This document shows, piece by piece, positions 30,601 to 33,600 of a stretch of 64,000 nucleotides of DNA. The translations under genes and the position numbers were made by a program. Location: the NCBI GenBank assembly GCA_035578905.1, contig JAQJVL010000260.1:124001-188000 (forward strand), read 5' to 3'. Within the stretch, counting starts at the first letter, position 1; every line of letters starts with the position of its first letter. Source of the DNA: Stictocephala bisonia (taxonomy: Eukaryota > Arthropoda > Insecta > Hemiptera > Membracidae). The notes beneath the pieces are model-generated. The model was not told the origin of the DNA. It was given only the letters and a program-made list of their open reading frames with translations, and did no database searches.

Positions 30601-33600
30601 AATAAACACGAATATTAGATCGATGATTTATAAAAAGCCCCATATTAAACTCCTTGACTTATACCTCTTACGAAGCTATCAACATACTCGCCACGGCCTA
30701 CACATAAATCAGAAAGGAAAGAAGACAATATCAAAAGAAATAATGAAGATGACTGATCATAACTTTCTTCAAACTAATGTCAAAAATGCAGAGTCTACAT
30801 TAAGCAACACATTAGGTTCAGCAGATCTGCTGTCTGAATTTCCAACCTTAACCTCAACTGTACCCATCCAGATAGAAGACGATTGCATTGACCTACAGAC
30901 AAGTTCAATTGACTCAGACAGGTTAATCAAAGTGATAGAAGCGAATATGCAGGATGTAATAAATAACTACAGGCATAATTCTCATATAGCTTTTGCCCAC
31001 TGTATATCAGAGGACTTCAATGACAAAAGACAAATGAGTGCGGGGGTGGCGTTAACATTCAGGAACATATTTAATCGGCCTAAGAAAGAAGATTCCATAA
31101 CTAAACACCTAACGTTCCAAGATCACAAGGAGCAAGCATCAGTGTATGGCCTGGTAACCAAACCAACGTTCTACAGTAAACCCACGGAATCAGATTACAA
31201 CAAAGCCTTCTCTGACTTCGCATCACACTTCGCACACAGAAGTTTCGAGAAACTGATTTGCTCGCCGTTGGGCTGTATAAGGGACAACATCTCTCCTGGG
31301 TTATTCGCAAAAAACATTGTATCCTTCCAACGTAAAACTAAAGTTCCAGTCAGAATAATTGTATATGATGAAAGAGCATCAAGGACACTAACAAACGGTC
31401 TGAAGCATCAGGAGTTCGTGACCCTGTTGAAGAGCAGTATTGCTAAGGAGGAAAATCTACAAATTAGCTCAAAGTCCACCCTACCGCCTTTACATCCAGC
31501 TGGAGCCAGTTACAATGGTGTTGCATCACAGGACTCCCCCAGTAGAAGACTGGACAGAGGCTCTACTTCAGAATTACTGCGACCTGGTGTAGTTGCTTTA
31601 GGGGACCTGCCGAGCTCCACTTTAAACTCTCCTCGCGCAACAATAACAGTCAACACTTAACAAATAGCACTAAACATCTTAACAGCAATTATATTTCGAA
31701 AATAAAGATATTACATCAAAATATACAACATTTGGCAAGTCGCATAGAACCGTTAGAAATTACGTTATCAGAAATAAATCCTGACATTTTAGTGATATCT
31801 GAACACAAAATGAACCAAAATGAAATTAATAGGTTACACTTGAATGATTATCAGTTGGTATCACACTATTCTCGTCATAGTACAACAGGTGGTGGTGTTG
31901 CCATTCTCGCGAATGGCAGGGCTGCCAGGTGGAGTTCGGTAGTCATGCCTCCTCGTATTTTAGCTATTGTGGAGGATAAGCAGTTTGAGTGCACTTGTGT
32001 AAAATTTATAACAGATAATGACCCTTTTATCTTAGTTGGAATTTATAGATCACCAAATGCTAAATTAGCCATATTTTTGGATAGATTGAGTGTGTTGCTG
32101 GGAGCTCTATTGCGTAAATGTAAACATATCGTAGTTGCAGGGGATTTCAATATTAATGTATTAAGAAATGACAAAAACGTTATTGAGTTTTCCGATGTAC
32201 TAGTTAGGCATGGATTTACTTACTTGGTTGATTTTCCTACAAGGGTAACTCAAAATACTAAATCAGCAATAGATAATTTTCTCACAAATATTAAGTGCTC
32301 TGATACTAACGTGGAAGGCATAGTTACTGCCTTATCGGACCATGATGCTCAGTTACTAACCCTGAAGGTCAAAACCAAAAACACTTGGAAGTCTAATCCT
32401 AAAAAAAAATACTGTTACAACTTTTCTGTAGATAACATGGCACATTTCAGAGAACTTTTAAAAGAAGAAAGTTGGGAAGATGTGTATCGTGCATCTGTTC
32501 ACAACAAGTATGATACATTTTTTAGGATCTTTAAAGGTCACTTTATTTCATCTTTTCCTCGAATCATTAGAAAATTAAACAATCAGCCAAAAGCATGGTA
32601 TAATGACTCCTTAAAATTAGAAAAAAGTGAAATTATTCAACAGTCTAAATTAGCTAGGGAATCAAAAAACCAACTGCAAATCTTGACGGTCAAAAATAAA
32701 TATAAGTCTTACAAACTAAAAGCTCAGCAGTTAAAAAAACAATACTATGATAATAAATTGAAAAAGTCACATAATATAATGAAGACCTCTTGGAATATCA
32801 TAAATAAGGAAGTGGGTAATGGAGCTCACAGCGACACTACTGACTATGTCATTAATCACAATGGTATTGCTTACAAGGACCCTCGTCTAATATGTGATCA
32901 CTTTAATGATTATTTTTTAAATGTAGCAAACATTAATAGTAAACAAACAAAATCATCCTTTTCCAATATTGAAAGTAAAAAATTACTAGACACCTCTACA
33001 ATGTTCCGTTGTAAACCCATCTGTTGTGTTGAAGTCACAGATATTATTAATAACCTTAATAATAGTGCATCATGTGGTCATGATGAGATTCCCATGAAAA
33101 TAATAAAGAATACAAAACAAGAATTAGCCCCCATTTTTACCCATCTAATAAACTCCTCTTTCATATCAGGCCTTTTTCCAATCAATTTAAAAATATCTAA
33201 AACTATTCCCATCTTTAAGAAAGGGGATAGGTCCAATATGTCCAATTATCGCCCCATTTCATTGCTCCCAGCTATTTCAAAAATTTATGAGAAAGCAATG
33301 TATAACAGGTTTAAGAAATATTTAGATGAAAAATCATTAATTGATAGCGTCCAGCATGGTTTTCGCTCAGGTTTTTCTACAATAACAGCTGCAACTCAAT
33401 ATATTGAATCGATAATAGATTCTATAGATAAAAAAGAACTTGTAATTGGAATCTCTATGGATCTCTCCAAAGCATTTGATAGAGTATGCCACAATACATT
33501 ACTAAAGAAATTAAAAGATATGGGTGTAGATAACAAGGAATACAAGTGGTTTGCATCTTACCTACAAAATAGATATCAATTTATAGAACTCACATGTAAG

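Follow-up and report, generated by a model that had tools for sequence, protein, structure and literature searches.

The closest known systems include LINEs of the CR1/L2 type with an esterase-type (type IV) ORF1, which encode an SGNH hydrolase in ORF1 and an APE endonuclease and reverse transcriptase in ORF2 (PMC4120745, PMC5408684, PMC3905857). The word 'macro' is absent from the main text of PMC4120745, on ORF1 types. Accessory enzymes common to unlike types of retroelement are described for bdelloid LTR elements, which carry a captured GDSL or DEDDy ORF3 (PMC5408684); the main text of that paper contains neither 'macro' nor 'ADP-ribose' nor 'Ulp1'. The nearest prior statement is that macro-domain ORFs sometimes occur in fish epsilon-like endogenous retroviruses (Basta 2009, as cited in PMC4977317). 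These are retroelements encoding a macrodomain protein, but the case concerns an additional ORF of a vertebrate retrovirus rather than a LINE, and the citing text leaves the class of macrodomain unstated. Among proteins, the closest systems are TARG1 (OARD1, C6orf130), an ADP-ribosyl-glutamate hydrolase, and the macrodomain of bacterial DarG, a DNA ADP-ribosyl hydrolase. No paper in PMC full text brought together macro domain, non-LTR retrotransposon and ADP-ribose. Among the PMC matches listed, no title or abstract placed a macrodomain in the ORF1 of a LINE or in the Pol of a Ty3/Gypsy element.

Here we describe a LINE in a 64,000-nucleotide stretch of Stictocephala bisonia DNA (the window). 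Compared with the esterase-type ORF1, that of its group has a macrodomain in addition, joined in longer relatives by a C48 protease. The domain shares with TARG1 the macrodomain fold, the HCIS and [MS]xGxA loops, the catalytic pair of TK and Asp, and their order and spacing. It differs from TARG1 in being embedded in a retrotransposon protein, in lacking the Px[IL]GxGxD loop, and in having, in the predicted structure, an additional C-terminal helix beyond a low-confidence stretch.

The LINE insertion

The insertion occupies positions 30246..34708 of the forward strand, on which all features given below lie, and ends in a TTTGATTTGATTTGATT tail. It is 99.2% identical to copy L031 over 4463 bases (blastn). 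No target-site duplication was seen by eye in the inspected sequence. Copies of the LINE are dispersed through the genome and vary in their 5' truncation. Since L002, L031, L006 and L004 have common sequence farther upstream, the window copy is 5'-truncated at about 30246, within SGNH block I. ORF1 is open for 477 codons (30227..31657, stop at 31658-31660), the leading 19 bases being host flank. Its first in-frame Met is residue 44, which together with the truncation means that a whole ORF1 protein could not be made from this copy.

The SGNH (GDSL) hydrolase domain (30246..30775), decapitated at block I, was recognized by Pfam Lipase_GDSL (30.1 bits, cut-off 23.6, E 6.9e-7) and matches GDSL esterases by Foldseek (E 3.3e-7). 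Its residues are Ser in DSQG (30254), Asn in GGTNN (30422) and His in RHGLH (30689). By eye, the block V His of the window type stands where a sister family (L040) has the usual Asp (DGVH), and the catalytic triad of this domain may accordingly have changed as well.

ORF2 (31546..34572, 1009 codons) lies in the -1 frame relative to ORF1. It contains an apurinic-type endonuclease domain (31720..32343; Exo_endo_phos, E 1.1e-10) and a reverse transcriptase domain (33217..33990; RVT_1, E 1.8e-33), and with PF03372 and PF00078 both over cut-off we class the element as an APE-type LINE. The ORF2 frame is uninterrupted in the truncated window copy, whereas the longer L031 has stops in both ORFs.

Identity of the macrodomain

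From motifs alone, it had originally been predicted that the part of ORF1 following the SGNH domain has the order and spacing of TARG1/OARD1, with the codons of a catalytic Lys and Asp at 31160 and 31283 in an uninterrupted frame. Both points hold. The motifs HCIS (30998), MSAGVA (31034), LVTK, SKPT and GCIRD all lie within the single frame 30227-31657, and the predicted catalytic residues are encoded by AAA (31160-31162) and GAC (31283-31285), which align to TARG1 Lys84 and Asp125 in both phmmer and hhalign. Searched as a single sequence against PDB chains, the domain (30917..31456, delimited by homology searches, predicted fold and profile) gave five phmmer matches at E<=10, every one of them human TARG1 (E 0.0011). 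Profile-profile comparison with TARG1 by hhalign gave 98.9% and E 1.3e-17. Structure prediction run without TARG1 rows or templates returned the macro fold that had been anticipated, TARG1 again being the best match. Pfam Macro (PF01661) did not match the window copy. Chance resemblance of motifs was considered and is ruled out by the phmmer and hhalign values, the predicted fold and the profile.

In TARG1, His32, Cys33, Ser35 and Thr83 have distal-ribose roles (PMC6397177), and all four are present in the window as HCIS and TK. The same source gives the TARG1 signature as TKx(30,35)Px[IL]GxGxD. It was found in none of the 47 window-type rows that have Lys together with Asp or Glu, in 9/9 rows of the L040 type, in 6/7 of a Gypsy type described below, and in 83/87 other OARD1-like proteins. 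The window-type loop is mostly SP[LM]GC[IVMT]RD: in all 47 rows the second Gly of the GxG phosphate loop and Pro118 of the adenine pocket are replaced, and a near-invariant Arg stands just before the Asp (47/49 rows). With GxG and Pro118 lost throughout, binding or turnover may differ from that of TARG1, and in view of these loop-3 changes we infer, rather than assign, catalysis by the window domain. Because the signature loop is changed while the distal-ribose residues are kept, the segment is, judged by its sequence, a TARG1-class macrodomain that stands outside TARG1 proper, probably as a sister group. A tree built from 60 chosen rows over 124 columns, whose bootstrap had not settled, unites the 26 window-type rows in a single group (100/100) on a branch 3.85 long. 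P0045, which looked like a TARG1 row with GCVRD, proved to be an alignment artefact.

Conservation and selection

The insect's own genome (1.68 Gb) was searched and the best 150 of 2375 candidates were scored, so that counts are lower bounds favouring intact copies. Among the 150 matches listed, ten rows (including the window and a fragment, L021) are 89-100% identical and the rest 42-55%; sequence was retrieved for 30 of these loci. A profile score above 120 bits defined the window-type rows, a limit that leaves decayed copies under-represented. Together with database proteins, and after dropping identical rows, they gave 49 distinct aligned sequences.

The proposal that the Lys/Asp pair would be under constraint in relatives was borne out across families that are about 50% identical. 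Lys is present in 47/49 rows, the other two having a gap there (lost in L006; L021 being the fragment), and Asp in 48/49, with Glu in L019. The distal-ribose residues are equally stable (His 47/49, Ser 48/49, Thr 48/49); Cys, which was not part of this count, is nearly invariant in a separate 15-row alignment.

Nine sequences chosen from a list of 30 were compared in 36 pairs. At synonymous sites 28 of the pairs were saturated, including every pairing of the window's own subfamily with another, and one near-identical pair had zero synonymous change. In the seven that were not saturated, three of them with dS >2, macrodomain dN/dS was 0.09-0.16. Elsewhere in ORF1, the tail had a dN of 0.76-1.03 in three of these seven (L025-L026, L025-L034 and L029-L034), the L033-L010 tail had a ratio of 1.95 from few changes, and the C48-SGNH-linker part of L029-L034 had a ratio of 0.16. 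The substitution pattern leads us to conclude that the macrodomain is kept under purifying selection in this LINE group.

Relatives and their ORF1 domain sets

A protein-database search with the window ORF1, in which the best 7991 candidates were scored, gave at least 31 relatives, including leafhopper (Homalodisca vitripennis, Graphocephala atropunctata) and metagenome proteins. The original prediction proposed a search for the SGNH-macro pairing in other arthropod elements. The pairing recurs in these proteins, with a macrodomain in 23/31 (partial in P0025 and P0033); it is lacking in the other eight (P0016, P0018, P0022, P0024, P0027, P0030, P0031 and P0032), of which P0027 ends inside the SGNH domain. 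The macrodomain is thus an optional module.

In the nearest long copy, L031, ORF1 is longer and a single stop breaks it into two pieces, which together comprise a probable coiled coil (a sub-threshold CALCOCO1 match, 18 bits against a cut-off of 36), a C48 peptidase (30.3 bits, cut-off 20.7), SGNH and the macrodomain. Macrodomain and C48 are also combined in L033, L034, P0006, P0012 and P0014; the order macro-C48-SGNH in P0006 indicates that the domains have been shuffled. The C48 (Ulp1-like) cysteine protease of this LINE group is found in P0018 as well. P0004, P0009, P0018 and P0025 begin with a PWWP chromatin reader. Pfam Macro gave no match in L033, L034, P0004, P0006 or P0012, nor in the Gypsy-type L063 and L064, and assignments of this kind rest on the genome search with the L040 query, the profile and the key residues. 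No SGNH domain scored over the Pfam cut-off in L033 or L034.

Two proteins of the thrips Frankliniella fusca named OARD1 (P0122 and P0125) have a macrodomain followed by what is by eye an SGNH-like segment, the same pair in reversed order; in Pfam, P0122 gave only a weak OSK match. P0035, a Macrosteles quadrilineatus protein with the name OARD1-like, falls together with the L040 macrodomain (95/94) instead of the OARD1 rows from flies; this host annotation may therefore cover a piece of a retroelement.

A sister LINE family and a Gypsy-like Pol

The genome also contains a sister family of LINEs, represented by L040, L041 and L042. The L040 macrodomain matches human TARG1 at E 1.7e-32, and L040 and L041 each score 25.4 bits with Pfam Macro (cut-off 22). 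L041 has its macrodomain and an endonuclease (29.2 bits, cut-off 24.5) in one uninterrupted frame of 629 codons. In L040 the C48 domain falls below the Pfam cut-off (17.3 against 20.7) and SGNH was recognized by eye only.

The L040 query also matched, at 1e-29 to 1e-31, 18 fetched loci (L062-L079) with a TARG1-like domain whose loop is mostly PRIGCGYD. Where read, this domain lies downstream of an H2C2-integrase-integrase C-terminal block, which we assign to a Ty3/Gypsy-like Pol from pieces of 3.4 kb; the two loci scanned by Pfam, L063 and L064, both contained H2C2, integrase core and integrase C-terminal domains. An integrase HPQSDG block shares one open frame with the macrodomain in 16/18 loci. 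These elements occur in numerous near-identical copies whose open frames are long, the longest reported having 1851 codons; examples lie at G000:C123:1783085-1783495 and G000:C1014:217839-218249. No protein resembling the Gypsy-type macrodomain was found at E<=0.001 among 302 scored candidates. A further locus, L080 (G000:C1940:63000-64200), has a macrodomain-like stretch with GLN in place of GLD in a reported open frame of 2664 codons.

The best tree separates LINE-type from Gypsy-type macrodomains. Constrained trees uniting window and L040 types (p-AU 0.124), window, L040 and Gypsy types (0.258) or L040 and Gypsy types (0.37) were not rejected, and the tree therefore does not establish independent capture by LINEs and the Gypsy type.

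Access to ORF2

The window copy, L031, L033 and L034 all have ORF2 in the -1 frame with respect to ORF1, the two overlapping by 115, 115, 76 and 40 nt, respectively. The first in-frame ATG of ORF2 lies inside the endonuclease in the first three (at 31810 in the window) and 989 nt beyond the ORF1 stop in L034. With no upstream ATG in the four elements examined, a start at ORF2's own ATG was discarded as the principal route. Six subfamilies were inspected through one representative each, and all six have exactly one strict in-phase slippery heptamer behind the macrodomain, located in the ORF1/ORF2 overlap. Four subfamilies have TTTAAAC at a distance of 37 nt from the ORF1 stop downstream of it (31621..31627 in the window), and the other two have TTTTTTA at 10 or 13 nt. 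When the codons of each tail were shuffled, a heptamer fell in the overlap in 2-12% of trials; as the four TTTAAAC cases are related, the product of these chances is not a clean probability. Of the 34 window-type rows with a readable stop, some of them the same locus, 27 have the heptamer and the other seven have frames ending before the usual tail. A downstream pseudoknot was sought in six folded rows, which gave only weak folds (0 to -5.6 kcal/mol). The geometry of the overlap, the lack of an upstream ORF2 ATG and the in-phase heptamer make -1 frameshifting likely at this putative site.

Proposed role and alternatives

Our preferred reading, to which we give a probability of roughly 0.5, is that a TARG1-class macrodomain was captured by APE-type LINEs, is fused ahead of the endonuclease by a -1 frameshift, and removes ADP-ribose where the nick is made. 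The data show sequence homology, a predicted fold, conserved residues, selection, the geometry of the frames and recurrence in a second retroelement class; we infer frameshifting, catalysis, the site of action and a benefit to the element. An APE-type LINE group would have captured the domain, which selection would then retain. The macrodomain would be made within ORF1p and, when ribosomes shift to the -1 frame at TTTAAAC, also within the N-terminal portion of a fusion of ORF1 and ORF2, a product that would place it directly ahead of the endonuclease. The nick at the target site would activate host PARPs, and the Lys/Asp pair would take ADP-ribose off proteins of the host or the element in the vicinity (or off the ends of nucleic acids), limiting repair signalling and freeing the site for target-primed reverse transcription.

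A TARG1-class domain adjoins a DNA-opening enzyme in three element groups: in the endonuclease frame of L041, in the integrase frame of the Gypsy type and, in the window type, one frameshift away from the endonuclease. The original prediction had suggested erasure of PARP marks at the nick or a block of host restriction; the likely tethering to the endonuclease and the Gypsy-like case, neither of which it had included, strengthen the hypothesis of action at the nick. Nicks made by the LINE-1 endonuclease attract PARP2 and activate it (PMC8210275; activation also PMC8764243). PARP2 also helps human LINE-1 (PMC8210275, PMC8764243), so that erasing ADP-ribose could hurt the element as well. Perhaps two retroelement classes each placed a TARG1-class hydrolase beside a DNA-cutting enzyme, the LINEs delivering to the nick by frameshift a kit of erasers (with the C48 SUMO/ubiquitin-type protease, the SGNH esterase and in some cases PWWP) that cancels the PARP and SUMO response to integration; this broader idea we put forward tentatively, as possible rather than favoured.

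The macrodomain might act away from the nick, countering host silencing or antiviral ADP-ribosylation (SIRT6-type modification of KAP1/HP1 complexes or PARP-family restriction, for example), with C48 removing SUMO or ubiquitin. SIRT6 mono-ADP-ribosylation of KAP1 is reported to silence LINE-1 (PMC4695847), and the longer relatives pair macro with C48 (L031, L033, L034, P0006, P0012, P0014), while P0004 and P0009 have PWWP. We consider this unlikely, since in three element groups the domain lies next to an endonuclease or an integrase, a position that fits the insertion site better.

Next in order, and doubtful, is an ADP-ribose reader that tethers the element RNP to PARylated or broken chromatin in the manner of a PHD, PWWP or chromodomain module, hydrolysis being incidental or lost. 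The altered phosphate loop of the window type and the PWWP reader of some ORF1s point in this direction, as does the Gypsy-like Pol, where the domain sits after the integrase C-terminal domain, the place of the chromodomain in chromoviruses. A reader would not need the nucleophilic Lys, yet every one of the 47 ungapped rows has it, and Asp is kept almost as strictly.

We regard as improbable a Lys/Asp hydrolase that now serves a different nucleotide-linked substrate: the distal-ribose residues persist while Pro118 and the GxG contacts have changed together with the near-invariant Arg beside Asp, but TARG1 is still the best fit of the predicted fold. A captured host fragment without function, or a chance likeness, is suggested only by the 7/31 relatives (plus P0027, cut short) for which the domain is dispensable, and is so improbable as to be dismissed, being contradicted by the dN/dS of about 0.1, by active-site residues near-invariant at about 50% identity and by the hhalign E-value.

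Returning to the preferred reading, a host that meets a nick in its DNA responds early on with ADP-ribosylation, among the first of its reactions. The ORF1 of LINEs can evidently carry a larger set of enzymes than the ORF1 types set out in PMC4120745. If the reading is true, an element with its own eraser next to the enzyme that makes the nick would directly demonstrate an influence of the ADP-ribose response on retrotransposon fitness, and the conflict between PARPs and retrotransposons would become testable through simple Lys/Asp mutants.
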